36,696 nt of DNA from an uncultured Cellvibrio sp. (lineage in GTDB: Bacteria; Pseudomonadota; Gammaproteobacteria; Pseudomonadales; Cellvibrionaceae): the NCBI GenBank assembly GCA_903858205.1, contig CAIOHY010000531.1, positions 1 through 36,696 of the forward strand, written 5' to 3'. The notes beneath the pieces are model-generated. The model had not been told where the DNA came from and did no database searches. It saw only the letters and a list, made by a program, of their open reading frames with translations. The stretch's first letter is position 1. The number at the start of each line of letters is the position of its first letter. Positions 1 through 29,450 of this stretch are shown here, one piece after another. The translations under genes were made by a program, and so were the position numbers.

Positions 1-881
1 CTGGAGGTGCGACGATTAGAAATGTAGCCAGTACGTTTGGCACGAATCTCTGTTCGCTCCAAGTTAATTCTTGCCAGATCATATTCGGCCTGTGCAAACG
101 ACATTGAAGCCTTTGCTTCGTTAGCTTTTGCTTGAATATTTTCCAATAATTTCTTTTTTGATTCCTGTAATGCGGAATAGGTTTTTTCAGCATCCTCCAC
201 CTTGGATTCTTGCGACTTATGCTGACTACGCGTTTGTACTATTTTTGATTCCAATGCAGCGCGCATGGCTTCTTTTGCTTCATAAAGTCGTTTAGCATTT
301 GTGTATTCATTTCTGGAAGTTACTTGCTGTGCAAACAATTTACTTATATTTTCATAGTTTTCTTTTAAGTAACCCAAATCAGCTTTAGTGGATTCCAGTT
401 CCTGCACCGCTTGTTCAATAGATGCCTCCGTGGATTTTAAGATAGCAGAAGCAGAATCGACATCAGTTTTGGCGCTGAGCAACTGCTTGTCTATTTCAAT
501 GCGGGTAAGTTCCACCTCGTTACTAGCTTGAGTAAATTTAGCAACTTCCAGCTCCTGTGAAGCGCGCGCTCTATTCAGCTCTGCTGCATACTGGCTACTA
601 TCTAATTTAATCACAATATCTTCAGCGCTTACTTGCTGGTCATCTTTAAATTTTACAGCCTCAATAACCCCACGCACCTCTGCAACCACATCAATAATGT
701 CGCACTGCACAATGGCATTATCAGTAGTCAGCATGTCACGTGTTGCAAAGCTGCGGGCGCCCATCCCACAAACAACCAACAAAATTACCAAGCCCACCTT
801 GTAGCGGTAGTCAAGCTGCAGGAAGGTGTCAATCAGTTTTGGCTTTGCTCTATTGGTAGAAGTATTCTCTGCATCAGACAT
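1..881 (-). CDS. HlyD/EmrA-family membrane fusion protein (partial, runs off the left edge)
   Basis: Reverse-strand reading from ATG at 881: MSDAENTSTNRAKPKLIDTFLQLDYRYKVGLVILLVVCG...DNAIVQCDIIDVVAEVRGVIEAVKFKDDQQVSAEDIVIKLD...; lipoyl/biotinyl hairpin plus long coiled coil, ending ...RINLERTEIRAKRTGYISNRRTS at the edge. Open to base 1. Directly downstream of the MFS gene. Confidence 0.85.
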   Translation of the reverse strand, partial: MSDAENTSTNRAKPKLIDTFLQLDYRYKVGLVILLVVCGMGARSFATRDMLTTDNAIVQCDIIDVVAEVRGVIEAVKFKDDQQVSAEDIVIKLDSSQYAAELNRARASQELEVAKFTQASNEVELTRIEIDKQLLSAKTDVDSASAILKSTEASIEQAVQELESTKADLGYLKENYENISKLFAQQVTSRNEYTNAKRLYEAKEAMRAALESKIVQTRSQHKSQESKVEDAEKTYSALQESKKKLLENIQAKANEAKASMSFAQAEYDLARINLERTEIRAKRTGYISNRRTS

Positions 882-898
882 TACTAAAATCCTGTTTG

Positions 899-2440
899 CT
901 ATTTAATCTGGTTGTTGAGTTTTTTCGATGAAATAAAGAGTGATATAACGGCCATAAACACAAATCCAAGCACAACCATTTGAAACATATTCATATAGGT
1001 GAGTGACAGTACTTGTTGGTTAACACGATCACGCAATGCGCGATAACCCATTTCTTTTGCGTGCTCAACGCTTGCTGTGTGAGCGAGATAAAACTCAACA
1101 ACATCACCAAAGCGCTTGTACAAAACGGTATTGAACCAAGTGACGTGATGCCGCAAATTTTCCCAATTGAGCATTTCAAACTGGGTAATTAAACTTGCAA
1201 AAACAGCTATGCCAATCGTACTACCCAGTAGTCGGGTGGTGGATTCTAATGCTGCCGCCGCAGGCATTTTCTCTTTAGGAATACTGATCAATGCCGCCGT
1301 GGTAACTGGACCGAGAATAAATGCAGCACCTATACCCTGCACGATTTGCGGCAAAATCATGTCATGCCAACCGGACTCGAAAGTAAAGTCCGCCATCATA
1401 ATGCCGCTTAGAATTCCCATCGATAAACCAAAAGAAATTAATAGTTTTGTTGGCACCCTATTGAATAACCAGCCTACCAATGGGAACGCCAACATCATTA
1501 CCAGTGCGCGTGGCGCCATAGATGTACCCGCTTGGGTCGGCGAAAAAAGTAATAACTCCTGCATATAAATAGGCAATACAAAGAGCGTTCCGGTAATCAT
1601 AAAGGCCGCAAAAAAATTCAGTAGATTGGCGGCAGCAAACGTACGATGAATCAGAATTTTGAAATCCAATAATGGCTGACTAATTGAGAATGAATGTGCG
1701 AGCAGCATCGTCCAGCTACCTGCTGCAATCAGCATTAATGTCATATTGAAATCATCTTCTAACCACAGCGTGCGATCGCCACGCTCAAGTAGCCAGATCA
1801 AACTAACGACAGCTACCGCCAGAAGAAACAGACTTGTTAGATCGAGGGGCAGTTTTTTTTGCGTAGTTCCTTCTTCCTGATTGCTCATAAACTCCTGAAC
1901 CATAATGACGCTGATAATTCCAATCGGAATATTGATTATAAAAATAAATTGCCAACTGAATTGGTCAATCATGATGCCGCCTAACATTGGCCCCAGTGCC
2001 GGCCCCAACATTATCGAGGTTCCATAGAGCCCCATTATCAATCCATGTTGCGCAGGCGGAAAAGTCCGGCGCAGGATCATACCCTCTACTGGCAAGAGTA
2101 ATCCCGCACCCAAACCTTGAATAACGCGCGCCATAATTAACTGTTCTAGCGAGTGTGATAGCGAACAGCAAATGGAGCCTCCAACAAAAAACAACAAACC
2201 GGTTTGATAAACATTTTTGCCACCAAAGCGCTCCACCAATCGAGCTGACAGAAACATGCATATCATGGAGGCAATCGCATAGCTGGTGCTCACCCAACTG
2301 ATCTCAGCGATAGTAGCTGAAAAAATGCCTCGCAAATTCGGTGTGGCCACATAAAGAATAAATGTATCCAGTGAGGACATTACGCCGCCCATGGAAACTG
2401 ACAGAGCAATTAGCCATTTTCTCTTTGACGCATCAATCAA
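899..2440 (-). CDS. DHA2-type MFS multidrug/metabolite exporter (EmrB-like)
   Basis: 513 aa, about 14 hydrophobic segments, LDTFILYVATPNL, ARVIQGLGAGLLLPVEGMILRRTFP, GPALGPMLGG motifs of DHA2 transporters. Confidence 0.9.
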   Translation of the reverse strand: MIDASKRKWLIALSVSMGGVMSSLDTFILYVATPNLRGIFSATIAEISWVSTSYAIASMICMFLSARLVERFGGKNVYQTGLLFFVGGSICCSLSHSLEQLIMARVIQGLGAGLLLPVEGMILRRTFPPAQHGLIMGLYGTSIMLGPALGPMLGGIMIDQFSWQFIFIINIPIGIISVIMVQEFMSNQEEGTTQKKLPLDLTSLFLLAVAVVSLIWLLERGDRTLWLEDDFNMTLMLIAAGSWTMLLAHSFSISQPLLDFKILIHRTFAAANLLNFFAAFMITGTLFVLPIYMQELLLFSPTQAGTSMAPRALVMMLAFPLVGWLFNRVPTKLLISFGLSMGILSGIMMADFTFESGWHDMILPQIVQGIGAAFILGPVTTAALISIPKEKMPAAAALESTTRLLGSTIGIAVFASLITQFEMLNWENLRHHVTWFNTVLYKRFGDVVEFYLAHTASVEHAKEMGYRALRDRVNQQVLSLTYMNMFQMVVLGFVFMAVISLFISSKKLNNQIK

Positions 2441-2543: not shown

Positions 2544-2563
2544 ACCTGTCAGATGTTACATAG
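2544..2563 (+). promoter_or_regulatory. lux-box-like palindrome ACCTGTCAGATGTTACATAG
   Basis: CTGT-N8-ACAT (one mismatch to a perfect CTGT-N8-ACAG dyad) in the divergent 2441-2599 intergenic region, about 37 bp upstream of the 2600 start. Confidence 0.6.
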
Positions 2564-2599
2564 CCTATACATTTACTTTCGCAATAGGGTCTCTATAAC

Positions 2600-3916
2600 A
2601 TGATCACACAACTATTTTTGGTAACTCATGTTATGAATACTGCAGTGAATAATGCGATCCTGTCCACGCAGGCAGTGCGCAAGTTAGGCGCGATTGAAAT
2701 GCGGATGGCGCTGTTCCATGCCAACCTCAACGGTTCTACGCAAGGGACACAGGCCATTTTTTTTTCAGCTAATGTGTCCAGCGAACAATTCATGAAGGCT
2801 GCCAACTATCTTTATGATCATTATGAAGCGCTTCAATGCACTATCAGAAAAGTCGACGAGGAGCTGTGGTTCTATCGCAGTGCAGTTTTTTCCAATATTC
2901 CGGTGCGTCACTTACAGTTAGAAACGCCTGCCGATATAAATACTGTTATCAGTGAATGCTTGGATCAGCCGATAGATCCAAACAAAGCGCTCTGGCGAGC
3001 GCAGTTGGTGAGCCTTGGCCATACCGGGCAGAAGGTATTTTTATTTAGCGCCCACCATGCAATTATTGACGCGAATGGCATGCATGATCTTGCCAATCGC
3101 TTTTTTCAGATTTTGTCGGCCGTCATTAGCAACGCTTCACTGCCCAGATTGCAGCCAATTAATTTTCCATTAGCTGTAGACGAGTTACTGCAACAAAATG
3201 CATCTCCTGTGGTAGTACCCACAGCGGAGCCTCGTCCACACGATAAATCTTGCCCTATCAATTATCGTCGAACCGGCTGGCAATTTGTCACACTTAAGCA
3301 AGAACAAATTGCAGCATTAGATAAGGCCCTGCAAGCCGACAATATAAAACTCCACTCCCTGATTAGCGCGGCACTTTGCCAAGCATTGCACGCGCAGGGC
3401 GTTGTGGCCGCCCATTGCAATTTCGGCACCGCGGTCTCGCTGCGTTTCTTGCAGGATACTAACCCCGAGTATTCCAACCCACTCGGATGCTATATGTCCA
3501 TCGCTACCACATCACTGGATATAAACGACAACCTCGTAGATTTCGCTCGAAAATACGATCGCGAACTGATGCATAAAATCTTCACCAGTTGTTTAAATAG
3601 GGTAGATACACTTTACGCCGACTTTGAAGCGGCAACACATAGGATTGCCCAGCTGGAAAACTTTTCCCAAGACGCAGGCATTACCAATATGGGTCACGTA
3701 GCCATTACTGAAACTTATCCTGGAATTGAAATCAGTGATTATCTAATGCTAGCTAATCGGGTGTCGGCCAATTTCTCTATCGTCGCTCACTGTTACGATT
3801 TTCTTGGTACACAACGTATTGGATTGGTATACCCCAAGCCCTGCCTTGCGGATGACGTAGTAGCGCGCGTCGCTGCTGACCTAGAAAAGCGCCTGCTAAG
3901 TTATAGCCAGCGCTAA
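2600..3916 (+). CDS. stand-alone condensation/acyltransferase-like protein (NRPS C-domain/PapA/WS-DGAT superfamily)
   Basis: 438 aa with FSAHHAIIDANGM, matching the HHxxxD(G) active-site motif; first gene of a +strand operon with PCP and A-domain genes. Exact start uncertain (ATGs at 2600 and 2633). Confidence 0.7.
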   Translation: MITQLFLVTHVMNTAVNNAILSTQAVRKLGAIEMRMALFHANLNGSTQGTQAIFFSANVSSEQFMKAANYLYDHYEALQCTIRKVDEELWFYRSAVFSNIPVRHLQLETPADINTVISECLDQPIDPNKALWRAQLVSLGHTGQKVFLFSAHHAIIDANGMHDLANRFFQILSAVISNASLPRLQPINFPLAVDELLQQNASPVVVPTAEPRPHDKSCPINYRRTGWQFVTLKQEQIAALDKALQADNIKLHSLISAALCQALHAQGVVAAHCNFGTAVSLRFLQDTNPEYSNPLGCYMSIATTSLDINDNLVDFARKYDRELMHKIFTSCLNRVDTLYADFEAATHRIAQLENFSQDAGITNMGHVAITETYPGIEISDYLMLANRVSANFSIVAHCYDFLGTQRIGLVYPKPCLADDVVARVAADLEKRLLSYSQR

Positions 3917-3954
3917 TACTTTTTATTGTGCTTAGTTAACTAAAAGGAACTCCT

Positions 3955-4218
3955 ATGACCGCGTTAAATGTTATCCAAATCGAGCAGCAAATCACTGCCA
4001 TTATTGCCGAAGTAAAGCGTATTCCCGTGACGGATATTCAGTTGGCACCCACCGATGATTTCATCAGCAAATACAACCTCAGCAGCATGGACGCCGTCTC
4101 AATGAGCGTAAAAATAAGTCAGCAATTTGGTTTCGGTTTTGGCCAGGCGGCAGAAGATATTGATGGGCTTGCATCCTTTGGTGCGTTGACCAACCTCGTG
4201 CAAAAAAGAGCCGCGTAA
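3955..4218 (+). CDS. acyl/peptidyl carrier protein
   Basis: 87 aa with a carrier-type serine motif KYNLSSMDAVSMSVKISQQFGFGF; stop at 4216-4218 abuts the next ATG at 4219. Confidence 0.8.
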   Translation: MTALNVIQIEQQITAIIAEVKRIPVTDIQLAPTDDFISKYNLSSMDAVSMSVKISQQFGFGFGQAAEDIDGLASFGALTNLVQKRAA

Positions 4219-5754
4219 ATGCAAGCCTTTACTCACAGAATCGCACACTGGGCACAGGCAAAAGCGGATACCTTGGCGGTTAATGATGGCGGCCAATCAA
4301 TAAGCTTTGGGGAATTACATTCACGGGCTCGGGAAATTGGCTGGCAGTTGCAAATTCTGGGCGTCGCACCGCGCGATCGCGTGGTGATACTCTTGCCCAA
4401 ATCGGTAGACGCAGTTGCTGCCATTGTGGGCGTTTTGCTTGCGGGTGCAACTTATGTACCGGTAGATGCCAGTTCACCTAAACAGCGACTGCAATCGATT
4501 CTGGAAGACTGTCAACCGACGGTCGTTATTGTGAATAAGCAGACGACGGATTTATTTCCCGCACAGACTCGATTAAATATTGATGCAACTCCGCGTGCGA
4601 GTTCGGTGGAGGTGGAATTTCCAACACCGGACATGGATGCAGATGCCTACGTGCTTTACACCTCAGGCTCAACCGGTGTACCCAACGGTGTGCAAATTAG
4701 CCAGCGCGCAATGCACAGTTTTTTTCATGCAGTAAATTGCTATATGGGCATTGATCATCGCTCACGCTGCATGAATACCTCGGCACTCTATTTCGATGTG
4801 TCTATCGCCGACTTACTTCTACCGCTTTACCAAGGGGCATCGGTGTGGTTGGGGCCGAGCATCCCATTGCCTTTCCGCTTTATCGATATCATCACCAGTA
4901 ATCGTATTACCCATTTTTGTGCAGTAGGTTCAACGCTCACCATGCTCGCCGGCATGCCCGGTTTTAGCGACCACCAATGGACGGATTTGCGTTGCATTAT
5001 GACGGGCGCAGAAGTGCTCAACCCCAACACTATCGCCAGCTGGCTCCACAACTCGCCCAATGCAGTGGTGCTTAATGGTTATGGTCCTACGGAAACTACT
5101 TGCGTTTGCACCGTCTTTGAGATCAACCAGGAACGCTTGCTAGGTTATTCCACATTTCCAATCGGCAAACCGCTTCCCGGTATAGAGGTGTTTATTGATA
5201 CACAAGCGACTGACGATGCTAATTGCGGTGAGCTTTGTATTAGCGGCTCGCAGGTAATGACTGGGTACCTGAATCGTACCACCCTGAATGAACTGCGTTT
5301 GTTTGCTCGCCATGGCGACACTTTTTATCGTACGGGCGACAAGGTTCGCTATAACCAACACGGCGAATTAATTTTCCTTGGACGAATCGATGATCAGGTA
5401 AAAATAAATAGCTATCGCATAGATCTGGGCGAGGTGATCACACCCTTCCTCAATACACCCGGCATTGAAGAAGCAATTGCAGTTCCACTTAATCATCCAC
5501 AGCGCGGTGAGTGCTTGGGTGTTGTAGTTAAATTAAAAAATGAGACTGATTTATCTGAATTAAAAAATCGCTGCAATGATGCACTGCCCGCCTATATGCG
5601 CGCCGCATTCGTTGCAGAGGTGAGTTCGCTCCCGCTGAGCCCCAGTGGCAAAATCAATGTGCGAAAACTACGCGCCATCGCCAATGCACACTTTAACGCT
5701 ATCGAAGCGGAAATCAGTAGAATTGATGACCTGATCAAGGAGCAAGAGTGCTAA
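4219..5754 (+). CDS. AMP-forming amino-acid adenylation enzyme (NRPS-type A domain)
   Basis: A3 YVLYTSGSTGVPNGV; A4 YFDVSIADLLLPLYQGA (Asp235 equivalent kept, suggesting an alpha-amino acid substrate); A5 NGYGPTET; A7 YRTGDKVRYNQHGELIFLGRIDDQVKI; A10 LPLSPSGKINVRKL. Confidence 0.92.
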   Translation: MQAFTHRIAHWAQAKADTLAVNDGGQSISFGELHSRAREIGWQLQILGVAPRDRVVILLPKSVDAVAAIVGVLLAGATYVPVDASSPKQRLQSILEDCQPTVVIVNKQTTDLFPAQTRLNIDATPRASSVEVEFPTPDMDADAYVLYTSGSTGVPNGVQISQRAMHSFFHAVNCYMGIDHRSRCMNTSALYFDVSIADLLLPLYQGASVWLGPSIPLPFRFIDIITSNRITHFCAVGSTLTMLAGMPGFSDHQWTDLRCIMTGAEVLNPNTIASWLHNSPNAVVLNGYGPTETTCVCTVFEINQERLLGYSTFPIGKPLPGIEVFIDTQATDDANCGELCISGSQVMTGYLNRTTLNELRLFARHGDTFYRTGDKVRYNQHGELIFLGRIDDQVKINSYRIDLGEVITPFLNTPGIEEAIAVPLNHPQRGECLGVVVKLKNETDLSELKNRCNDALPAYMRAAFVAEVSSLPLSPSGKINVRKLRAIANAHFNAIEAEISRIDDLIKEQEC

Positions 5755-6839
5755 TGAAAACCACAACGCACTCGCTGCTCTCGAGCGAACTATCCAACTC
5801 GATCGCAGCGGCTTTTACCCACACCACCAACCTTCATTCTCCGGTAAACACTCCACCAGCTCCCCATGAGCTTATTCGATTGCTGGGTGAAACAAGATTG
5901 GTGGCAGCATTGATTGACCCTGGTTCACACGAAAGCCTCTTGCTGCATCAAGTGCATCTGGCGAACTGGCTCGCGGGATTCGGTGTAAGTGCAGCCACTG
6001 ATTTGGCATTACACCAACTATGCACTGTGTATCCGTTACTCAAGCACCTCAGTGCTGGGTCAGCCAATGCACGCGCGCTAGCGACGCAGCTATTGCACGC
6101 GGAGAAATTAGCAGCGCGCATTATTCAACCTTGGGGGCACGCCACTAATCCCAGCGCACGACAAACTGGAAAGCATTGGATTATCCAAGGCGAATTACCG
6201 CTCTGCTTAGTAGGAGTGGACACAGAATATTTACTCATCCCGCTGACCACACCCGACTCATCAGCTTTGGCTATTTTTTGTCTCCCTCTGGGCACAACTG
6301 GTTTAAAAATTCTGGCGCGCGCACCAGTCTCGGCAAGCGGTGATTATTTTATCGCACGAATTTCACTGGAAAATGTGCAGCTCACTGAGGCCCAGCACCT
6401 TGGCAGCGTGGATAGTGATTTTATGCAACAAAGGGGCAATACACAGCTCACATTGGCAGCTATTGCCCAGAACCACACCAGCGAAACGGTGCTGACCACC
6501 AGCATCGAATTTTTGCGCAAACGTTTGGCAAATAATGCCCCCTTATTGAAGCTGGATGTACTGCAACAACGGCTCGCCGCACTCCGCGCAAAATTATCCA
6601 TGGCACAAGCGCTGGCGTTCTCAGCACTGGATGCGCAAGAGGCTCACAATTTCACACAACTGGCGCATGCCAGCTATGAGAATTCGCGCCAGTTATTGCA
6701 GACCATCAGTGGCGAATGCTTACATCTGGGCGGAATTAATCACTACCGCAACGACAGTGAATTGGCCGACGCCTATCAAGAAGCGCGCTGGAACAATTTT
6801 TTCAGTGCCTACACCCCGGCCGCTGTATTGGCGGATTAA
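5754..6839 (+). CDS. acyl-CoA dehydrogenase-like protein, degenerate FAD-cleft half
   Basis: ORF 5748-6839; ATG at 5754 overlaps the upstream TAA (TAATG). ACAD C-terminal signature TTSIEFLRKR...LQQRLAALRAKL and HLGGINHYRNDSELADAYQEARWNNFF, but no TEPxxGSD motif in the middle domain. Confidence 0.75.
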   Translation: MKTTTHSLLSSELSNSIAAAFTHTTNLHSPVNTPPAPHELIRLLGETRLVAALIDPGSHESLLLHQVHLANWLAGFGVSAATDLALHQLCTVYPLLKHLSAGSANARALATQLLHAEKLAARIIQPWGHATNPSARQTGKHWIIQGELPLCLVGVDTEYLLIPLTTPDSSALAIFCLPLGTTGLKILARAPVSASGDYFIARISLENVQLTEAQHLGSVDSDFMQQRGNTQLTLAAIAQNHTSETVLTTSIEFLRKRLANNAPLLKLDVLQQRLAALRAKLSMAQALAFSALDAQEAHNFTQLAHASYENSRQLLQTISGECLHLGGINHYRNDSELADAYQEARWNNFFSAYTPAAVLAD

Positions 6840-6850
6840 CAGGATCAGAA

Positions 6851-7924
6851 ATGCAATTAACGGATAACCAATACTCGCAGCAACTGCAGCAGTGGCTCGC
6901 GCAGTCTACGAAGACTCATTTCACTAACGGCCAGCAGCAATGGCCAGTGCGCGAATGGGTGAAATCCCTAGCCAAGGCAAATTTATCGGTTGCCGGATGG
7001 CCCGCACCTTATGGTGATGGCGAGCTGCGCAAGCAATTGCATTTACATTACCGCATTGCACGCAACGCACCAGGTAGTCTCGGCTTATGTATTACATCGC
7101 ATCTGGATATAGGCGCGCGGTGCCTGATGGAAAAGGCCAGCCCACAACTCGCTGAACAGTGGCTAGCCCCAGCATTACGCGGCGATGCGATTCTGGCTTT
7201 AGCGATGACCGAACCTCAAGCAGGCAGCGATTTGCAGGGCATTGAATTTAGCGCGGAGAAAAAAGAGCAGGGGTGGTCATTAACCGGGGTTAAACGCGGC
7301 ATCACCAATCTGCCCTTTGCAGATGCAGTGATAGTGCTGGCACGCACAGCCCCAAATCGATCGCCATTTAGTTACACATTGTTCTTGTTGCCGATGAACA
7401 CACCAGGTGTGGAGCGCGAAGTGGCGCTACCAACACTTGCTTACCCTGGTTGCCTTGGTGGAATGCAAGTAAAGAACGCGCTAATTCCGGAACAAAATGT
7501 GCTGGGCGCTCCCGGAACCGGGCTGATTCTTTTAATGCAACACATGGCTACCGAGCGATTATTTGTGAGTGCGCGGATGCGGGGCATCAGTGAGATGTTG
7601 CTAGAAAAAATTCAGCAACATTCTGCACTGGCCACAGATCAATTGGCCAAGTTGAAAACACAATCCTTGGCATTTAATGCTTTCTTCGAACAGTGCGTAG
7701 AAAATTATATACGCCAATCATTTCCAGCGCGCGAATCGGCCAGTTTGAAATATCTTGGTAGCCAACTGCTGAAAACTCTGTGCGCTACGCTTAGCGAGCA
7801 AGAGGGAGCTGCGGGTTATTTGGCTGATGGAAACGCGGAACTTTATCAGCGAGAGGCGATGGGTTTGGCATTGGCCGGAGGGAGTGAAGAAATCATGCTA
7901 GCAATCATTGGCAGTGAACTTTAA
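6851..7924 (+). CDS. acyl-CoA dehydrogenase family protein
   Basis: ALAMTEPQAGSDLQGIEF (FAD/substrate motif), GLILLMQHMATERLFVSARMRG, LALAGGSEEIMLAIIGSEL. Confidence 0.88.
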   Translation: MQLTDNQYSQQLQQWLAQSTKTHFTNGQQQWPVREWVKSLAKANLSVAGWPAPYGDGELRKQLHLHYRIARNAPGSLGLCITSHLDIGARCLMEKASPQLAEQWLAPALRGDAILALAMTEPQAGSDLQGIEFSAEKKEQGWSLTGVKRGITNLPFADAVIVLARTAPNRSPFSYTLFLLPMNTPGVEREVALPTLAYPGCLGGMQVKNALIPEQNVLGAPGTGLILLMQHMATERLFVSARMRGISEMLLEKIQQHSALATDQLAKLKTQSLAFNAFFEQCVENYIRQSFPARESASLKYLGSQLLKTLCATLSEQEGAAGYLADGNAELYQREAMGLALAGGSEEIMLAIIGSEL

Positions 7925-8000
7925 TTTAAGAACCCTTCAGGTTTTTCTGGCATCTATCGGTTGCGACTTCATTGCCGCAACACTCTGTCCACATTTTCAC

Positions 8001-8036
8001 CTCACATTACTGCACAGCGTCATACGCAGTAGTGAG
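8001..8036. repeat. imperfect inverted repeat, possible terminator between convergent genes
   Basis: CTCACatTACTGC...GCAGTAGTGAG between the stop at 7924 (+) and the stop at 8054 (-). No clear T-tract. Confidence 0.35.
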
Positions 8037-8053
8037 AAGTGATTGAAGTCAGA

Positions 8054-8452
8054 TTAATCCACAAACGCAGTTGCCTCAATTTCTACTTTGCCTTTGGAAT
8101 CAAATATCTCAGCGACTTCAATGATGGTCATCGCGGGAAACCCTTCACCGAAACGCGCATACCATGCGACGGCAATTTCACGCTTCTTGGCGTGATAAAG
8201 CGGAAAATCCGTAATAAACACGTTCATCTTGGCAATATTTCTAGCATCACCGCCAGCCGCACGAACAACAGTGAGCACATTATCCAAGCAGGCACCGAAC
8301 TGGGTAACGAGGTCATCACTTTCTAGAACCCCCTGGATATTGCCAGAGAGCTGACCAGAGATAAACATCATACGCTTACCTTCAGGCACGATAACACCAT
8401 GAGTGTAACCACTCGGATTGTGACGAGTGGGTGGATTAATTTTTTCAAACAT
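8054..8452 (-). CDS. RidA/YjgF/UK114-family protein
   Basis: MMFISGQLSG, LDNVLTVVRAAGGDARNIAKMNVFITDF, FPAMTIIEVAEIFDSKGKVEIEATAFVD align to the RidA fold; the canonical FPARSxVEVA Arg is Met here. Confidence 0.88.
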   Translation of the reverse strand: MFEKINPPTRHNPSGYTHGVIVPEGKRMMFISGQLSGNIQGVLESDDLVTQFGACLDNVLTVVRAAGGDARNIAKMNVFITDFPLYHAKKREIAVAWYARFGEGFPAMTIIEVAEIFDSKGKVEIEATAFVD

Positions 8453-8554
8453 AGGAGTTATCCATCACAAGAAGGGGGGAAAGAAAATAAATGAGACTCA
8501 AAAATATCAAGTCACCTCATCAAATATAATGACGCGTTTTATCCTACCCCAGAT

Positions 8555-8574
8555 AGCTGTTAGAAATGACAGTA
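8555..8574 (+). promoter_or_regulatory. lux-box-like palindrome AGCTGTTAGAAATGACAGTA
   Basis: Perfect CTGT-N8-ACAG dyad in the divergent RidA/SDR intergenic region, 70 bp upstream of the SDR start. Confidence 0.7.
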
Positions 8575-8643
8575 GGTACTCAATCAGCATTGCTTTAAAA
8601 TGCTGACGCTAATCCCCAGTCCATTTTATTTTCAGGAGTATCT

Positions 8644-9378
8644 ATGACCACCCAAACAATCAAAGGCACTAGCGTATTGGTGACTGGCGCCTCGCGCGGA
8701 CTTGGCCTGGCATTTGTGAAAGTGTTGGCGGCACGCGGTGCTGAAAAAATTTATGCAGGCTATAAAAATGCAGAAGGTCTTGCAGAACTGAACAACCTGA
8801 AGTTGGCCAATGTAATTCCAGTATTACTGGATGTTACCGACTCTAACCATATTCAATTATTAGCTCAACAAATTAATGCACTGGATATTATTATTAATAA
8901 TGCGGGCATTGCATCAGCCTGCGGGTTTACCGCTGACCATGTATTGGAAACCGCAACTGCTGAAATGAACACGCATTATTTTGGCCCCCTAAAACTGATA
9001 ACCACTTTTTTGCCATTGCTCAAGCAAGCGCCGCAAGCTGGCATTATCAATATCGCCTCCATAGCGGCGATCAGTAATTTCAAGGCCATGGGCACCTACT
9101 CTGCATCAAAAGCCGCATTGCATTTTATGACTCAAGGTTTACGTGCTGAGCTTGCTGGCTCCACTATTTTTGTTCAAGGCGTCTACCCTGGTCCATTCGA
9201 TACTCGTTTAGCCGCCGGTTTTGACGGATTCAAACAAAGCCCGGAAACGATCGCAAACATCGTTCTGGATCTTTATCGCGAGCGAGTAGATGAAGTATTC
9301 CCAGATGAATTCTCTAAAACCATGTATCAAACCTTCCTTGAATCACCTAAAAAATTAACCGAAATTTTCTCCCAGTAA
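8644..9378 (+). CDS. short-chain dehydrogenase/reductase
   Basis: VLVTGASRGLGLAF, IIINNAGIA, YSASKAAL: classical SDR motifs. Confidence 0.92.
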   Translation: MTTQTIKGTSVLVTGASRGLGLAFVKVLAARGAEKIYAGYKNAEGLAELNNLKLANVIPVLLDVTDSNHIQLLAQQINALDIIINNAGIASACGFTADHVLETATAEMNTHYFGPLKLITTFLPLLKQAPQAGIINIASIAAISNFKAMGTYSASKAALHFMTQGLRAELAGSTIFVQGVYPGPFDTRLAAGFDGFKQSPETIANIVLDLYRERVDEVFPDEFSKTMYQTFLESPKKLTEIFSQ

Positions 9379-9396
9379 AAAGCGAGGTATAAAAAC

Positions 9397-9429
9397 GCCG
9401 TCTTGTAAATGAAACCACTACAAGACGGC
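9397..9429. terminator. intrinsic terminator, likely bidirectional, between convergent genes
   Basis: GCCGTCTTGTA-N11-TACAAGACGGC, a perfect 11-bp stem followed by TTTCTATTTT and preceded by AAAAA; sits between the stop at 9378 (+) and the stop at 9465 (-). Confidence 0.9.
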
Positions 9430-9464
9430 TTTCTATTTTATTCCCCCCTTCGTAAAGTAATTGG

Positions 9465-10130
9465 CTAACCCACAACCACTTGACGAAATGCAAACTCCGC
9501 CCCGTGCCCTTTCAGATAGCCCCTTCCTCCTGCAAATTGTAAATATTGGTCAACCAGTTTATGGATGAGCGGCAAACCCAGCGATTGAAATAATTCCAGA
9601 TTAGCGGGCAGCTCTGGATTCTCAACCGCCAGCTCCCACAGGGCTTCAAATGCAAATAGCTTTGCTTGCAATTCTGCCAAGGTGAATTCTACATGCTGAT
9701 TGCGAACCAAGGGCACACCAAACGTTTGGCGCTGGCGCACCTCTGCAAGCAACTCGGTAAACACATATTCTGCAAAACCCAAATCAACTGCGGCAATCAT
9801 CAACACAGACTGGTTAGATTGGATATGGACAAATTCCTTCGACTTAGCGTTAGCAGCGCAACAAGCCACTGCGATAGCTCGATTGAGTTGCAGAAAGGGT
9901 GTGCGACCAAGCGCACGCAGATGATGATGTAGCTGATCCTTGATTGAAGGCTTAGCAAACTCTGCTATAAATGATTGCAGCACAGCTTTCTCAGGTATCT
10001 CCTTACCTTGCATCCATTGTGGGTGATCCGGCCAGTTACTCTTCAACCAGTGGCGCACATCCAACGTCATTAAATCAACGGATGTATTTATCACGGGGAC
10101 TCCATTATTAATATTTTTCAGTGGCGGCAA
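9465..10130 (-). CDS. short acyl-CoA dehydrogenase-like subunit (C-terminal domain type)
   Basis: 221 aa; EVRQRQTFGVPLVRNQHVEFTLAELQAKLFAFEALWELA (R-x-x-F-G...Q ACAD motif) and LQFAGGRGYLKGHGAEFAFRQ; lacks the middle beta domain and TEPxxGSD. Overlaps the upstream ACAD by 23 bp. Confidence 0.75.
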   Translation of the reverse strand: MPPLKNINNGVPVINTSVDLMTLDVRHWLKSNWPDHPQWMQGKEIPEKAVLQSFIAEFAKPSIKDQLHHHLRALGRTPFLQLNRAIAVACCAANAKSKEFVHIQSNQSVLMIAAVDLGFAEYVFTELLAEVRQRQTFGVPLVRNQHVEFTLAELQAKLFAFEALWELAVENPELPANLELFQSLGLPLIHKLVDQYLQFAGGRGYLKGHGAEFAFRQVVVG

Positions 10131-11238
10131 TACTTTTCAACATCATTTCATCAGAGCCGGTGGAGATGGAAAATAGACGCGCATCGGCAACGCAGGTTTG
10201 TAAACTGTTAACATCGCCCTTTGAATGCTGACGCGCCAGATCAAGAGCAAAAAGCGAAGCGCTTCGCGCAAGACGGGACGAAATGAGTTTACTGCTGGAT
10301 GACAGACTCAGGTATTCGCCATTAGCAAGCCAGTGCTGCATAGCTTTATACGTCAGTGCTCGACTAGCTTGCCATTCCGCAATTAGTGTTTGTAATTGCT
10401 GGTCTGCGGTATAGGTCCACTGTGCAGCGCGCGCGAGACATTGATAAGCAACTTGGTTTGCACGCAAAGACGATAAAATTCGCTCTTGTGCAAATTGCTG
10501 CAATTGATTGATCATTCCCATACCGGGCATCCCCAAACGGCAATCATCCCCTATCCAGAGATCATCAAAAAAAATATCGCTAACCGGGCATTGTGCGTTG
10601 CCAAGTGCAGGCCAGACATTGCCGAGCCTGAGTCCGGGCGTGTCTTTGGGTATCAAAAAATTCACCATGTTGAACGGCGCTCGATAATCAGCCAAGCGCG
10701 CTATTACAAAATGCACATCGGCTAGTGATGCCAATGAAATCATTGTTTTGTGGCCACATATACGCCAGCCGGAGCCATCCCTGGTAGCCGTTGTTGCGAG
10801 GTTAGTTACATCCGATCCAGCACCTGGTTCGCTAACCGCGTGACTTAACAGAATTTCGCCCCGCAGTGCAGGCATTAAGAATCGTTCAATTTGTTCCGGT
10901 GCCCCGTACTGGTCAATAAAGGGCGCCACCATATCTAGATGAATGGTGAGAGCCATACCAATACCACCGGATGGAATTCGCCCCAAACTTTCCGCGAACA
11001 TGGCTTGGGCCGCCAAACCAGCACCGGTACCACCTTTTTCTTTTGCGTAACGCAACCCACTCAACTGCTCGCTGCGGAGCGCGGCGATGAGTTGGTGATA
11101 ATTACATTGAGTAGTTGTTTTAGCTGCAGGCATCAAAAAGCGGTCGAAGGTCTTGTTAATGTGCGCTCGCAGTTGTTCGGCACCCTCAAATTTCCAAAAT
11201 GCCGGAGTGGGATGGTCACCCAATAAAAACTGGTTCAT
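10108..11238 (-). CDS. acyl-CoA dehydrogenase family protein
   Basis: LLSHAVSEPGAGSDVTNLATTATRDGSGWRICGHKTMIS, SISTGSDEMMLKSIAATEKY. Confidence 0.88.
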   Translation of the reverse strand: MNQFLLGDHPTPAFWKFEGAEQLRAHINKTFDRFLMPAAKTTTQCNYHQLIAALRSEQLSGLRYAKEKGGTGAGLAAQAMFAESLGRIPSGGIGMALTIHLDMVAPFIDQYGAPEQIERFLMPALRGEILLSHAVSEPGAGSDVTNLATTATRDGSGWRICGHKTMISLASLADVHFVIARLADYRAPFNMVNFLIPKDTPGLRLGNVWPALGNAQCPVSDIFFDDLWIGDDCRLGMPGMGMINQLQQFAQERILSSLRANQVAYQCLARAAQWTYTADQQLQTLIAEWQASRALTYKAMQHWLANGEYLSLSSSSKLISSRLARSASLFALDLARQHSKGDVNSLQTCVADARLFSISTGSDEMMLKSIAATEKY

Positions 11239-11262
11239 TCGTCACCTCAAAAAATGAGCGGA

Positions 11263-12129
11263 CTAGCCTGACTGCTGCCACTCAAGCGAGACCTGACCCG
11301 TGGCGATATGAGCGACCGATCCCATCATGGTAATGTGAAAAGCGGGTGAAATAGCAATGTGAATATCACCACCAGCTAGATGGACAAGAACCTCTCCATC
11401 GCAATAACCCAGCTTATGCGCAACAGCCGCAGCAGCACAACTGCTGCTACCGGATGCCAAAGTGTAACCGGCGCCTCGCTCCCAAATTTCAACCTGAATT
11501 TCACGGCGATTAAGAACGCGTACAAACTGAACATTGGTGCGATTAGGAAATAGCGGATGTGTTTCTAGAATGGGCCCGAGCGCACGCGCCATTTGCTCAT
11601 CGGGATGATCAGTAAATATCACGCAGTGAGGGTTGCCAATCGTCGCAGCGGAAAACACCAGATCTTGTCCATTTATCACAACAGATTCTTGCAAGACATC
11701 GCGCATCAGCCCGGCTACCGGAATAGCGTGACTGTTAAAACTGACCTGCCCCATCTCCACACGCACTTGCCTACCACATTCCAGTATTTGTGCGTTAACT
11801 TTTCCGCCTTTGGTATGCAAAACAAATTCGTCATCGCCAACAATTTTCTGGTCCCATAGGTAGCGACAAAAAATTCGTATGCCGTTACCACTTTTTTCCG
11901 CTTCACTGCCATCTGGGTTAAAAATCCGAAGGTGCGGAACTCCATAGTCCGCGCTGCCGGAGTCAAGCAGCACACCATCGGAGCCGATACCAAAATTTGT
12001 GTCGCATATCCGCCGAATCAAATCACAGTTTAATTCTTCTACAAAATCAACAGCGCGCATAACTATGTAGCTGTTACCCAATGCATGGTACTTGAAAAAA
12101 TCCATAAGTGATTCCAGCAATCTAATCAA
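11263..12129 (-). CDS. DapF-fold protein (diaminopimelate epimerase-like) lacking both catalytic cysteines
   Basis: FFKYHALGNSYIVM, FGIGSDGVLL, IFNPDGSEAEKSGNGIRIFCRYL, WERGAGYTLASGSSSCAAAAVA; DapF family, but the two Cys positions are Ile (GNGIR-I) and Ser (TLA-S-G). Confidence 0.85.
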   Translation of the reverse strand: MIRLLESLMDFFKYHALGNSYIVMRAVDFVEELNCDLIRRICDTNFGIGSDGVLLDSGSADYGVPHLRIFNPDGSEAEKSGNGIRIFCRYLWDQKIVGDDEFVLHTKGGKVNAQILECGRQVRVEMGQVSFNSHAIPVAGLMRDVLQESVVINGQDLVFSAATIGNPHCVIFTDHPDEQMARALGPILETHPLFPNRTNVQFVRVLNRREIQVEIWERGAGYTLASGSSSCAAAAVAHKLGYCDGEVLVHLAGGDIHIAISPAFHITMMGSVAHIATGQVSLEWQQSG

Positions 12130-12134
12130 AAAAA

Positions 12135-12737
12135 CTAATGTGAGTGGATATTAAGCGACTCATCCACCTCAATCCATAAAGCTACTGAACGCTCCACACC
12201 AATTTGCAATGTTTTTCCTTCACCCATGCGCCAACAATTAACACCCAGTTGACGCAACATTCTTTCACAGGCAATACTGGTAACAGTCACATAATATTTA
12301 ATATTTTTTCTGCGCGCGAACTCATAGAACGACCGAACCATTTGAATGGTAATACCGGACATATAGCCTTTATGACAGCTAGCAGATCCTTTGCGGACAG
12401 CAAAACGACTAATTTCCCACACATCACTTTCCATTGGCGCAGCTTCGCCCTGTAATAATTCAGGAAAGATATCCTTGAGCATATAGCTACCCATGGTAGG
12501 CAGTGCCCGCCAACATCCATCCACGCTGCCCTGTGCATTTTGCACAGCAATATGAAAGGGATCCAGATCATCAAAATTATCTCGCTCGAGACCGTCATGC
12601 GTTTGTATGTCCCACTGCAGACGCTCCAGAAAAATTTCATGACGCAGTTTAAAAATATCGGTGAAAAAACCGGCTGATATCGAACTATTATTTTCCTGTG
12701 CAATCACAATGTTACTCATCCTTTTGCAGCTCCGCAT
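12135..12737 (-). CDS. LuxI-family acyl-homoserine-lactone synthase
   Basis: KLRHEIFLERLQWDIQTHDGLERDNFDDLDPFHIAV...VDGCWRALPTMGSYMLKDIFPELL...VWEISRFAVRKG contains the invariant LuxI residues (R, F, W, E-x-D-x-x-D, R, E-x-x-R). Confidence 0.93.
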   Translation of the reverse strand: MRSCKRMSNIVIAQENNSSISAGFFTDIFKLRHEIFLERLQWDIQTHDGLERDNFDDLDPFHIAVQNAQGSVDGCWRALPTMGSYMLKDIFPELLQGEAAPMESDVWEISRFAVRKGSASCHKGYMSGITIQMVRSFYEFARRKNIKYYVTVTSIACERMLRQLGVNCWRMGEGKTLQIGVERSVALWIEVDESLNIHSH

Positions 12738-12783
12738 CTAACTAATGGAGCCGCCAACTTAATAATCTATTCCTTTAGACATT

Positions 12784-12803
12784 AGCTGTCGCTTCTAACA
12801 GTA
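12784..12803 (-). promoter_or_regulatory. lux-box-like palindrome (minus strand TACTGTTAGAAGCGACAGCT)
   Basis: Perfect CTGT-N8-ACAG dyad starting 47 bp upstream of the luxI-family start. Confidence 0.72.
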
Positions 12804-12860
12804 GCCAATAACACCAAATATAATTGTTTAAAAACAATGAGTTAACTATAATTTCGTGAA

Positions 12861-12880
12861 GACTGTAAGAACTGACAGCT
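12861..12880 (+). promoter_or_regulatory. lux-box-like palindrome GACTGTAAGAACTGACAGCT
   Basis: Perfect CTGT-N8-ACAG dyad in the same divergent region, upstream of the RibD-like ORF. Confidence 0.68.
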
Positions 12881-13000
12881 GGCGATATCGGGCTGATGGT
12901 GGCAAGGTTTTTAAAAGAGCCACCTGTAACATTTTTCACTAGCGCACTGTGAGAATTTCACCAAAATACGTATTCGACTAAGAAATTACAGGTAAGCGTT

Positions 13001-13969
13001 TTGAAACGATCGGAGCTGAACGATAAAACATTTAGTGATGCACTAAGCCTTACATTGAATACATCTCGTAGTTTGGCGCCTCGCGCCGCTATCGGCTGGT
13101 GTTTATTGGATACCGGAAATCAAGTTATAGCTTGCGATGCAACTATGGCTGGCGTGGCATCCACAAAGCTGATTCATTGCCTGCGTCAACATGCTGAACA
13201 ATGCCAGCAAATAGTGCTTACACTGGAACCCATTCAGGGAATCGTGAATGGAGGTGAATTAATTAATGTGTTGGAAAATTCATCGTGCGAAAAAATTAGT
13301 ATCGCTCATCGTATGGAATCGAAATATCTCGATTTGGACTGGTTACGCTGGAAAGAAACTTGGCCAGGAGACTTAAATTATCTCGCGCAATCTTACGTGG
13401 CGGAACAACTTGCGGCCGGCATTGAATCAGTTAAACAACGTCATCGCCCATGGGTAATTGCGGTGTGTGCAGCAGATTGGTTTGGTCGAAGCTTATCGCT
13501 GAAGGATCAATGTGAAGGTTTTGCAATTAAGGAACAACTTAATCATTACGCAAGCCAAAGTCGCGCAATTCTGTTTACTCCTGAACAGCAAGAATTCGTC
13601 AGTAATTTACCAGAAACAAATTCTATTAATGAACCTATAGCTCCATTTGAAATTTATGATTTTCACGCAATTGAATCGCTACTGAACTATTGGGCAAGTG
13701 AATATAGATGCAACTGCGTAATTTATACCAATACTCTTACACTCGGTTATTTGCTCCAGCAAGAACTGGTGGATGAAGTCGTTTATTATTTGGCAGATGC
13801 AGACAACGACAGCCGCTTAGCTGAAGCCGGCTCGATGCACGGGTTGCCGGTAATGAATTTCGCGGGCTGGCAAACTACCTCCTGCTCAAAAGCAGGAGAT
13901 GGTTGCCGCTTAGTGTTAAGGCGCAAATCCAGCCACTCAAATTATCTATCAAATCCTAGGCTTAATTAA
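13001..13969 (+). CDS. degenerate RibD-like protein (deaminase-reductase architecture)
   Basis: APRAAIGWCLLDTGNQVIACDATMAG...IVLTLEPIQGIVNGGELINVLE...HRPWVIAVCAADWFGRSLSLKD...NCVIYTNTLTLGYLLQQELVDEVVYYLAD resembles RibD (PNPxVG, VTLEPC, RPWVxLKxAxSLDG, LVDExxxY) with catalytic motifs eroded. TTG start after AGGTAAG. Confidence 0.65.
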   Translation: MKRSELNDKTFSDALSLTLNTSRSLAPRAAIGWCLLDTGNQVIACDATMAGVASTKLIHCLRQHAEQCQQIVLTLEPIQGIVNGGELINVLENSSCEKISIAHRMESKYLDLDWLRWKETWPGDLNYLAQSYVAEQLAAGIESVKQRHRPWVIAVCAADWFGRSLSLKDQCEGFAIKEQLNHYASQSRAILFTPEQQEFVSNLPETNSINEPIAPFEIYDFHAIESLLNYWASEYRCNCVIYTNTLTLGYLLQQELVDEVVYYLADADNDSRLAEAGSMHGLPVMNFAGWQTTSCSKAGDGCRLVLRRKSSHSNYLSNPRLN

Positions 13970-14695
13970 TCCCGACGACATTGCTTTAGCAACAGCGTGC
14001 TGACGATTGACCGCACCTAATTTTTTAGTGGCGCTGGTTAAGTGAAAAATAACCGTACGCTCGGTAACATCAATAATTTTGGAGATTTCCCAAGTGGTTT
14101 TCCCCTCGCACGCCCAGAATAAGCACTCCACTTCACGGGGAGTAAGATTATCTTTTTTCTTGGGTGCACTATTGATATTAATGCGCATCACAGTGCCAAA
14201 CAATTCAATGCAAAATGCATGGGCGAGGGGCAGCACTTTTTCAAAACGAGCATCTATATCCTCCCCCGAAGCACTTGCAAGACTAAAAATGGCAAAATCG
14301 CCATTGTGGGAGCGAAGAGGAATCGAAATACCATGAATGAGTCCAAACTCTGCAGCTTGCGCTAATATTTGCTCAGCAGCGGGAGTAAGGTAATCGTCGA
14401 GCTCTAACAATTGATCCCAACGAACAGGGGTTACGTTCTCAAAACAATAACGCACAACTGGATCATTGCTTTGGTAGGAAGATTCAAAATAGGTTTTAAT
14501 CCAAGCGTCTGGATAATTGGTGATCGAGGATATCTCGGGTGCACTAAGTGAGGTAGGGCGACACATCCCGAAGAGATAATGCTCGAACCCTACCATCTCA
14601 CTAAATTTATCGCATAAAATTTTCACGTCGTCCAAAGTAGAGATTTGACTTTGATGACCGGAAAAATCCTGCAAGATTTGGAAAGCTTGAACCAT
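13949..14695 (-). CDS. LuxR-family transcriptional regulator with autoinducer-binding domain
   Basis: YPDAWIKTYFESSYQSNDPVV, TPVRWDQL, HGISIPLRSHNGDFAIFSLA (W/Y/D-P/W/G autoinducer pocket residues) and HTH NLTPREVECLFWACEGKTTWEISKIIDVTERTVIFHLTSATKKLGAVNRQHAVAKAM. Confidence 0.93.
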   Translation of the reverse strand: MVQAFQILQDFSGHQSQISTLDDVKILCDKFSEMVGFEHYLFGMCRPTSLSAPEISSITNYPDAWIKTYFESSYQSNDPVVRYCFENVTPVRWDQLLELDDYLTPAAEQILAQAAEFGLIHGISIPLRSHNGDFAIFSLASASGEDIDARFEKVLPLAHAFCIELFGTVMRININSAPKKKDNLTPREVECLFWACEGKTTWEISKIIDVTERTVIFHLTSATKKLGAVNRQHAVAKAMSSGLIKPRI

Positions 14696-18590: not shown

Positions 18591-19419
18591 TGCTGTACAC
18601 CATTTGTTTGCATTCCACGCCTATGCCGCGATAACCAATAAATCGGCAGGATTGATCGAACATGGGCTCGCCGCTCACGCGGTAATGTTGTTGGGAACCA
18701 TCGGAATGGGTGCGGCTGAAGGCGAAATCGATAAAAGGTTGGCGTGCTTCAATGGTCGCATGCAATTGCGCGCGTTCGGCTGCATCCCAACCATCGTGAC
18801 CAGTTTCATTTGCGCTGCCTTCAAGTGTATCAACGCGGATGCCGAGCATGTCTAATACCGGCCCTGATACTTTGGTGAAATAGCCGCGTTGGTCTTGCTC
18901 CCAATACCAATCCGACGCTAGCTCGGTGAGGCTGCGAAACCGCGCTTCACTTTCACGCAATTCTGCTGTGCGTTCGGCAATTTTTTCTTCCAACAATTTA
19001 TTGTGATCTTCTAATTTTTTATACAGCAAACGTACTTCCAACATATTACTAATGCGTGTTTTTACTTCGATTACACCAAAGGGTTTACTAATAAAATCTT
19101 TTGCGCCCGCCTGCAGTGCACGTAATTTGTGTGCGGGCTGCGCGGTTAATACGATAACGGGCAAATAGGCGTCGGTAATATTGGTGCGCAACCCCGCCAT
19201 AACTTCAAAGCCATCCATGCGGGGCATTTGTAAATCAAGCAGAATTAAATCGTACTGATGCTGGCGATGCAGTGCGCAGACTTCAGTTGGATTAAGTGTG
19301 GCGGTCACATTTTTGTAGCCCGCGTCACTGAGCAGCTCTTCCAACAACTGCACATTACTGAGCTGATCATCGACAATCAAAATCTTCGCAGTGAGCAGAT
19401 CCAGTGTGGTGAGCATCAT
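18559..19419 (-). CDS. response regulator: REC domain, coiled coil and PAS domain
   Basis: ILIVDDQLSNVQLLEELL, LILLDLQMPRMDGFEVMAGLR, PVIVLTAQ, KDFISKPF, then RFRSLTELASDWYWEQDQRGYFTKVSG PAS; ATGA overlap with the kinase gene. Confidence 0.9.
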   Translation of the reverse strand: MMLTTLDLLTAKILIVDDQLSNVQLLEELLSDAGYKNVTATLNPTEVCALHRQHQYDLILLDLQMPRMDGFEVMAGLRTNITDAYLPVIVLTAQPAHKLRALQAGAKDFISKPFGVIEVKTRISNMLEVRLLYKKLEDHNKLLEEKIAERTAELRESEARFRSLTELASDWYWEQDQRGYFTKVSGPVLDMLGIRVDTLEGSANETGHDGWDAAERAQLHATIEARQPFIDFAFSRTHSDGSQQHYRVSGEPMFDQSCRFIGYRGIGVECKQMVYSSASINNTASI

Positions 19420-24818: not shown

Positions 24819-25070
24819 TTTTTATTAGTCTCCTTAATGAGATGTGGAAATATTTCTTACCGACAATAGCATTTTTGAAATTGCGGCTCCTAGCCCTTCT
24901 TGCCAACCTCTGTAACCAAACGTCGGGAAATGTAAAAAGCATTGCGGGCGTATTCCTTGCATACTAGCCTCAGAACCTAATGCTCCAAGTTGCAATTGCT
25001 GGCTTTTAAACACAAAAAGACAACAGAAAGCCGATTATTTACTAAAGAATTGCTTCACATTAATCAACTG

Positions 25071-26240: not shown

Positions 26241-26275
26241 GTTTGAAGAAGTTAATCATTAAACAGAGATAACCA

Positions 26276-29200: not shown

Positions 29201-29356
29201 GCGGAATTGCGCCAACCCTTGGGATTGGTGATGGTGGGAGGATTGTTGGTAAGCCAGGTGTTGACCGTGTTTACCACGCCGGTGGTGTATTTGTTTTTTG
29301 ATCGCTGGGTTGGCAAGCCAACTGCGAATGAATTTGTCGAGGAGGCACAAACGTAG
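26276..29356 (+). CDS. mdtB: RND multidrug efflux pump subunit (MdtB-like)
   Basis: 1026 aa; [85 protein letters not shown]. Confidence 0.88.
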
Positions 29357-29442
29357 GTTGGGCAGCCATGCCCAACATTTGTAAGCCGAACCTGATTATG
29401 TTCGGAAAGAGCATTTGTTGGGCATAGCTGCCCAACCTACGT
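29351..29442. repeat. nested palindromic element between mdtB-like and mdtC-like genes
   Basis: Arms ACGTAGGTTGGGCAGCCATGCCCAACA (29351-29377) and TGTTGGGCATAGCTGCCCAACCTACGT (29416-29442), inverted with one mismatch; each arm is itself a hairpin, with an inner CCGAAC...GTTCGG. Confidence 0.9.
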
Positions 29443-29450
29443 AAAACATC

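Follow-up and report, generated by a model that had tools for sequence, protein, structure and literature searches.

Comparison with described systems

Biosynthetic gene clusters (BGCs) in which luxR and luxI adjoin biosynthetic genes are, in their majority, uncharacterised (PMC5872303). We analysed such a locus on a contig of an uncultured Cellvibrio sp. (C531; its entire 36,696 bp are called the window below). There, the genes for a LuxI-type synthase of acyl-homoserine lactones (AHLs) and a LuxR-type receptor lie among genes for a stand-alone condensation-like (C-like) protein, a peptidyl carrier protein (PCP), an amino-acid adenylation (A) protein and four members of the acyl-CoA dehydrogenase (ACAD) family. 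The domains by which luxR-linked BGCs are recognised are present: LuxR has AHL-binding and helix-turn-helix domains, LuxI matches the synthase family, and the catalytic and ligand residues of both look intact. The window differs from those clusters in lacking a multimodular nonribosomal peptide synthetase (NRPS) or polyketide synthase (PKS).

Two kinds of described systems invite comparison. The acinetin 505 locus of Acinetobacter baumannii (abaI-abaM-abaR, A1S_0112-0119) likewise has a third gene between its luxI- and luxR-type genes, and an AbaI-dependent cluster with an AMP ligase, a free-standing carrier and an ACAD (PMC5376624, PMC8088503). Compared by description, the clusters differ: the acinetin ligase is fatty acid-acyl carrier protein ligase-like, an NRPS is present and the third gene is of the RsaM type, whereas the window combines an amino-acid A protein with paired ACADs and a RibD-type third gene and lacks an NRPS. 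The prolyl-carrier sets PltF/PltL/PltE, PigI/PigG/PigA and RedM/RedO/RedW share with the window a stand-alone A protein, PCP and ACAD. They are unlike it in that the window has a non-proline A code, two ACAD pairs with apparently dead subunits, an additional C-like protein, RidA and a short-chain dehydrogenase/reductase (SDR), and scores far under the family cut-offs. Searches of open-access literature on stand-alone A/PCP/ACAD desaturation found no description of this gene set. The locus is a variant of the clusters controlled by quorum sensing (QS), and its pathway is apparently undescribed.

With moderate confidence, we propose that the locus is a QS-controlled cluster for a small molecule derived from a single amino acid, and that the RibD-derived protein encoded between luxI and luxR, here RibD*, would tune QS rather than serve as a pathway enzyme. 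The case is built from sequence: the gene set, its conservation, lux-box-like sites, motif losses and the mobility of the QS cassette.

Gene content of the locus

A previous sequence-only reading had listed the genes of this locus. Open-reading-frame and profile searches found each of them at or near the positions it gave, and the families agreed. In the list, identities refer to orthologues in Marinifaba aquimaris and in a metagenome-assembled genome (MAG) of the window genome's own order (G036; JAPOUS010000105.1, "Cellvibrionales bacterium").

3-881, minus strand: EmrA/HlyD-like membrane fusion protein, truncated at the contig end; 39% identity to Marinifaba
899-2440, minus strand: EmrB-like exporter of the major facilitator superfamily; PF07690, 166 bits; 68% Marinifaba, 56% G036
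2600-3916, plus strand: C-like protein, a stand-alone condensation/PapA5-like acyltransferase; HHAIIDANG motif; PF00668, 40 bits; PapA5 model, 38.5 bits, under the cut-off; orthologues 46% and 34% identical
3955-4218, plus strand: stand-alone PCP; PF00550; Ser in LSSMD; 72% Marinifaba
4219-5754, plus strand: stand-alone A protein; PF00501, 240 bits; TIGR01733, 331 bits, over the cut-off; 58% Marinifaba, 45% G036
5748-6839, plus strand: ACAD1, "a"-type, without the TEPxAGSD motif and catalytic Glu
6851-7924, plus strand: ACAD2, "b"-type, motifs intact; best NCBIfam match PigA, 90.7 bits
8054-8452, minus strand: RidA-family enamine/imine deaminase; PF01042; 79% Marinifaba
8644-9378, plus strand: SDR; PF00106, 130 bits; 62% Marinifaba
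9465-10130, minus strand: ACAD4, shortened "b"-type of 221 aa, without the FAD domain and catalytic Glu; b clade, 98/97
10108-11238, minus strand: ACAD3, "a"-type, motifs intact; 48% to G036 ACADa
11263-12129, minus strand: DapF-like isomerase; PF01678, 185 bits; Ser at both catalytic Cys positions
12135-12737, minus strand: LuxI-type AHL synthase; PF00765, 109 bits
13001-13969, plus strand: RibD*, a putative RibD-derived pseudoenzyme, from its predicted fold, hhalign and motif loss
13949-14695, minus strand: LuxR-type AHL receptor; PF03472, 123 bits, and PF00196, 58 bits

Conservation and rarity of the cluster

A scan of 84,980 species genomes with short peptide patterns, which distant relatives escape, returned two loci, in M. 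aquimaris and in G036. In Marinifaba, the order is EmrA-EmrB-C-PCP-A-ACAD1-ACAD2-RidA-SDR-luxR-ribD*-luxI; past luxI lie genes for an aldo/keto reductase, a haem-oxygenase-like enzyme, an AfsA-domain protein, an FAD monooxygenase, a hydrolase, a HAD protein, a flavodoxin and a phosphopantetheinyl transferase. G036 has luxI-DUF4902-luxR together with PCP-A-ACADa-ACADb-haem-oxygenase-like-C-EmrB-EmrA. From the comparison of these gene sets, the core in common is therefore the C-like protein, PCP, A protein, ACADs and EmrAB; this biosynthetic core is conserved, with A proteins 45-58% identical in the two relatives. The recurrence of enzymes and QS genes together in two other bacteria bears out the suggestion that this is a QS-regulated biosynthetic locus. 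The window has a DapF-like gene and a second ACAD pair (ACAD3/ACAD4) that neither relative shares, and we thus regard them as accessory to the core. Both relatives have a haem-oxygenase-like enzyme; a search for one in the window's genome gave no match.

The gene cluster is rare, with no further close relatives among the sampled genomes. The C-like protein matched 5 of 392 genomes in the window's order (above 200 bits, the window's genome and G036 only) and 3 of 369 genomes in the class (above 100 bits, the window's own only). A search of 395 genomes of Marinifaba's order with the A profile gave no close match besides Marinifaba. In a plasmid collection, no relative of the C-like protein or RibD* was found; matches to the DapF-like protein there stayed under 60% identity, and of those inspected the best sits in a housekeeping neighbourhood.

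Several candidates were rejected. Four genomes (G443, G476, G091 and G093) have weak C-like matches, but the cluster core does not surround them. A fifth, G296, has EmrAB and a 24% identical C-like protein within another gene set and is a cousin only. Beside these G296 genes (L021 2295-6509) is a run similar to the one past luxI in Marinifaba, which has an AfsA-domain protein of the A-factor synthase type, an aldo/keto reductase, an FAD monooxygenase and a hydrolase, and a 258-aa protein of G296 that resembles the Marinifaba AfsA-domain protein (L046 4569-5318) has no Pfam match. A gamma-butyrolactone-type step may occur in the wider cluster family.

Lux-box-like sites and quorum control

Five lux-box-like sites were located in the window:

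2544-2563, plus strand: lux box 1, ACCTGTCAGATGTTACATAG, in the EmrB/C divergent promoter; its 17-bp core is kept upstream of C in Marinifaba (L025 9818)
8555-8574, no strand assigned: lux box 2, AGCTGTTAGAAATGACAGTA, in the RidA/SDR divergent promoter
12784-12803, no strand assigned: lux box 3, in the luxI promoter
12861-12880, no strand assigned: lux box 4, in the luxI/ribD* promoter; top position-weight-matrix score of the window
12922-12941, plus strand: lux box 5, ACCTGTAACATTTTTCACTA, upstream of ribD*; a near-identical site lies upstream of ribD* in L088 (10639)

The 17-bp element upstream of the C gene in both the window and Marinifaba is ACCTGTCAGATRTTACA. The first base of lux box 1 is also the coordinate, 2544, at which the sequence-only reading had begun the locus.

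The matrix was symmetric and built from four Marinifaba sites. Since these had been picked by eye among consensus matches in intergenic DNA, the scan of the window, and not the training set, is the test. The five best matches in the 36.7 kb (12861, 2544, 8555, 12784 and 12922) all fall inside the cluster's three divergent promoters, which make up 1.7% of the window; none of 1,000 column-permuted matrices placed more than two of its five best matches there. The reverse test recovered all four Marinifaba sites, and an eight-site matrix also ranks the luxI promoters of other genomes as top matches. A plain count of the lux-box consensus is not significant alone (7 in the window, 15 in shuffled sequence); significance was reached with the cross-genome matrix and with the strict pattern CTGT-N8-ACAG, which occurs 3 times against 0.35 expected. 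Taken as predicted binding sites, these matches leave quorum control of the locus well supported. In a separate genome (G1284), two divergent DUF6895 genes lie near luxR-ribD*-luxI (L102 13398-16122), one of them with a lux-box-like site directly upstream (14759, score 20.3).

RibD*, the third gene of the cassette

Does the RibD-like gene contribute chemistry, or does it belong to the signalling genes that flank it? Within the order sample, the two LuxI proteins most similar to the window's (58% in G106, 52% in G342) are both encoded in luxI-ribD*-luxR beside large PKS genes. A search with RibD* found three more relatives, two in luxI-ribD*-luxR, of which one has an ABC exporter and an NRPS-type gene nearby. 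Altogether, 6 of 7 RibD* members adjoin luxI and luxR, and the neighbouring genes differ. The six cassette LuxIs form a clade (94/93), as do the six cassette LuxRs (98/96). The ribD* and luxR genes overlap tail to tail, by 21 bp in five of the six loci, the window among them, and by 4 bp in the sixth. Another search, covering 165 genomes of the order, returned RibD* from G106 and the window's genome only, with a single 30-bit fragment besides. Because RibD* occurs with luxI and luxR beside clusters of other types, it is best assigned to the QS cassette and not to the chemistry; the suggestion that the gene encodes a pathway enzyme is not supported, on the same grounds.

The RibD-like label itself holds for the predicted fold and fails for the active sites, as both motif sets are absent. 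The window protein had no relevant Pfam match even at E=5. Its predicted structure (model confidence, pLDDT, 84.8; an earlier, poor model from two sequences, pLDDT 68, was replaced) found full-length RibD structures as best Foldseek matches (E 4e-15, template-modelling score 0.64), and hhalign to true RibD gave 95.5%. In all seven members, HAE, PCxxxxxxxxC (zinc ligands) and E(A/G)G (NADPH site) are absent, and the D-E of the reductase-domain (L/V/I)DE segment is retained. The window protein lacks both NADPH-site motifs, SxDG and E(A/G)G. True RibD genes are found elsewhere in the genome in all four genomes checked.

In a survey of luxR-luxI pairs, the single intervening genes RsaL, RsaM and MupX all encode negative regulators; the others comprised two genes for DNA mobilisation, a LuxR-like regulator and five genes of unknown function, including that of Saccharophagus degradans 2-40 (PMC3386692), which might be a RibD* member. 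RibD* resembles RsaM, RsaL and MupX in being a single gene between luxI and luxR, and for RsaL an overlap with luxR is reported too (PMC3386692, PMC10710839). It is unlike RsaM in having no match to PF16245 (the RsaM domain) and a RibD fold. By position and active-site loss, RibD* is a probable pseudoenzyme regulator in the place of RsaM, RsaL or MupX, with a role that is probably restraining; it may be a new QS component. Searches of open-access literature on RibD with LuxI and LuxR found no description of the set.

An improbable alternative is that RibD* is a reductase acting in the pathway or on the AHL. The full RibD fold appears to be retained in the predicted structure, and the upstream lux box suggests coordinated expression. 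Against this, the zinc ligands and NADPH-loop motif are gone in 7 of 7 members, and RibD* accompanies unrelated cluster types and is absent from the G036 cluster, where RsaM takes that place.

We advance a broader proposal tentatively, rating it a little short of an even chance: that RibD* represents a family of QS regulators not recognised before, derived from a riboflavin enzyme by loss of both active sites and moving in a portable luxI-ribD*-luxR cassette that controls PKS, NRPS and PCP/ACAD clusters, and that in the window it would preside over a new pathway in which two reciprocally degenerate ACAD heteromers desaturate an amino acid.

Two other observations concern such genes. In G1293, a RibD* relative lies near an NRPS-type gene and a thioesterase-like gene (L101 9471-10394). 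In G093, the gene directly after luxI encodes a protein of 344 aa that carries a domain of the cytidine-deaminase type (PF00383, 30.7 bits; L092 10210-11849), perhaps an independent link of a deaminase/RibD-like protein to luxI.

LuxI and the acyl donor

The G036 enzymes are orthologous to those of the window (A protein 45%, EmrB 56%). Its LuxI and LuxR nonetheless fall in clades other than the window's (100/100), and the gene between them encodes a PF16245 protein (53 bits). One chemistry is thus found with two distinct QS cassettes. The window and Marinifaba have the same A code, which is changed at one residue in G036. In the LuxI alignment, one segment differs between the window and G036 (VTVTS against ISVSP); from residue roles in EsaI and LasI, we take this site to govern 3-oxo preference. 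Consumption of the pathway product by LuxI is argued against by this combination of a conserved A code and a differing 3-oxo-sensitive site.

These comparisons bear on the proposal that the A/PCP/ACAD enzymes supply LuxI with an unusual acyl donor for a non-standard homoserine lactone, the least probable of the alternatives that we weighed. Some LuxI enzymes use aryl or branched acyl groups, luxI leads an operon with dapF*, ACAD3 and ACAD4, and the coumaroyl-homoserine lactone synthase 6wn0 is a weak structural match of LuxI. The best structural match is LasI, however (130 bits), and the window's LuxI clade is also found with PKS and NRPS clusters. Moreover, a separate exporter and C-like transferase are conserved, and G036 keeps the enzymes alongside a luxI-rsaM-luxR set that is not orthologous, with a LuxI of another clade. 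The sequence-only reading had raised this option, which the MAG counts against.

Two pairs of dehydrogenases

The four ACADs fall into two types. ACAD1 of the window and Marinifaba clades with ACAD3 and G036 ACADa (100/99), and ACAD4 clades with ACAD2 and G036 ACADb (98/97); because the branches are long, the exact placement of ACAD1 and ACAD4 is less certain than their clades. ACAD1-ACAD2 and ACAD3-ACAD4 each encode one a-clade and one b-clade member together. The TEPxAGSD-type FAD motifs and ER-motif Glu are kept in ACAD2 and ACAD3, and ACAD1 and ACAD4 have neither. By their motifs, the four ACADs form two pairs that are degenerate in a reciprocal way: in each, one subunit is intact and the other is predicted to be dead. 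Most simply, an a-b pair would have been duplicated and the copies would then have lost opposite active sites, leaving two heteromers in which a single subunit is live. Heterotetrameric acyl-CoA dehydrogenases exist, such as mycobacterial ChsE1-ChsE2. The ChsE genes are similarly adjacent and paired; the putative heteromers of the window differ in that each has one partner without the FAD motif and Glu, in reciprocal fashion.

Alternatively, ACAD1 and ACAD4 are decaying pseudogenes and not structural partners. Both lack the catalytic motifs and lie on long branches, and ACAD4 is just 221 aa long. We consider this rather unlikely: ACAD1 has kept an open frame of 363-386 aa and its operon position, the window and Marinifaba show identical losses despite 23% identity, and the pattern is reciprocal (a dead/b alive, a alive/b dead).

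Substrate and remaining enzymes

The idea that an amino acid is loaded on the PCP and oxidised by the ACADs is probable. The intact ACADs (ACAD2 and ACAD3) have the prolyl-carrier dehydrogenases PigA and RedW as their best NCBIfam matches, at 91/77 bits for ACAD2 and 102/101 bits for ACAD3, well below the cut-offs (500/650).

It is a further step to the proline-to-pyrrole model that had been suggested, with chemistry like that of PltF/PltL/PltE or PigI/PigG/PigA. The PigA/RedW matches point toward it, as does the prolyl-PCP dehydrogenase 5zw0, the second-best PDB match of ACAD3. Scores of 77-102 bits against cut-offs of 500-650 do not. Proline codes are of the DVQ type, which the A code read here (D V A C I T G C V K) does not resemble; among the structural matches of the A protein, the prolyl ligases 7thn and 6o6e rank under NRPS domains. 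In addition, one ACAD would suffice for this chemistry, and the window has two pairs plus RidA and SDR. We thus consider a proline-to-pyrrole pathway very improbable.

The DapF-like protein passes the DapF model (TIGR00652, 236 bits against a cut-off of 115). Its catalytic Cys pair is absent (KSGNG and ASGSS versus CGNG and ACGTG), and in the alignment both Cys are present in the genome's housekeeping DapF. Most substrate-site residues are retained (the first-motif Asn, GNPH, ERGAG). A plausible role is that of an isomerase or epimerase acting on a more acidic carbon, e.g., in a thioester or desaturated aminoacyl group.

A working model

In the model that we prefer, LuxI would make an ordinary AHL, and LuxR-AHL would bind the lux boxes of the three divergent promoters. 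The conserved sites suggest co-activation of the exporter, C-PCP-A-ACAD1-ACAD2, RidA, SDR and luxI-dapF*-ACAD3-ACAD4. Judging by protein families, the A protein would activate one alpha-amino acid and load the PCP with it; the bound aminoacyl group would be desaturated by two heteromeric acyl-carrier dehydrogenases, both made up of an FAD-active and a degenerate subunit; and the Ser/Ser DapF-like protein may isomerise or epimerise an intermediate. RidA and the SDR could then handle an enamine/imine or keto form, transfer of the acyl group off the carrier would fall to the PapA5-like C protein, and EmrAB would export the product. RibD*, in its portable luxI-ribD*-luxR cassette, most likely tunes QS, probably negatively, like RsaM, RsaL and MupX.

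Several points weigh against this model. The code DVACITGCVK gave no substrate assignment for the A domain. The DapF-like protein and ACAD3/ACAD4 are confined to the window, and hence any pathway step given to them is a guess; ACAD1 and ACAD4 may be copies in decay. G036 is without any site matching the lux-box matrix, so its quorum control is only positional; as the G036 LuxR is of another clade, the missing site is possibly expected. The RibD* relative of G1293 has no luxI or luxR within the 20 kb read. Finally, EmrA is truncated: the contig stops within it, so that the cluster may be cut short on its left, with additional genes missing.

If true, the model describes a small, compact pathway that can be switched on with AHL. 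It would add a new protein type central to luxI/luxR circuits, in which the third genes known so far (RsaL, RsaM, MupX) act to restrain signalling, and it would provide a natural experiment in which two duplicated dehydrogenase pairs have lost opposite active sites. Because RibD* has no meaningful Pfam match, it could also be used as a query to find QS-controlled clusters that escape standard profiles.

Other features of the contig

The source genome is fragmented (4.45 Mb in 669 contigs), with a G+C content of about 48% in sampled contigs. Further along the window, a histidine kinase gene (19416-20648) encodes a C-terminus like the tail of a receiver domain, as though an internal segment had been deleted, and a PAS/receiver protein gene comes after it. 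By eye, a small protein encoded at 32856-33272 resembles a PIN-domain (VapC-type) toxin. Positions 24990-32549 hold an RND efflux operon with an adaptor and two pumps (MdtABC-like), whose G+C content of 55-59% is above that of its surroundings.

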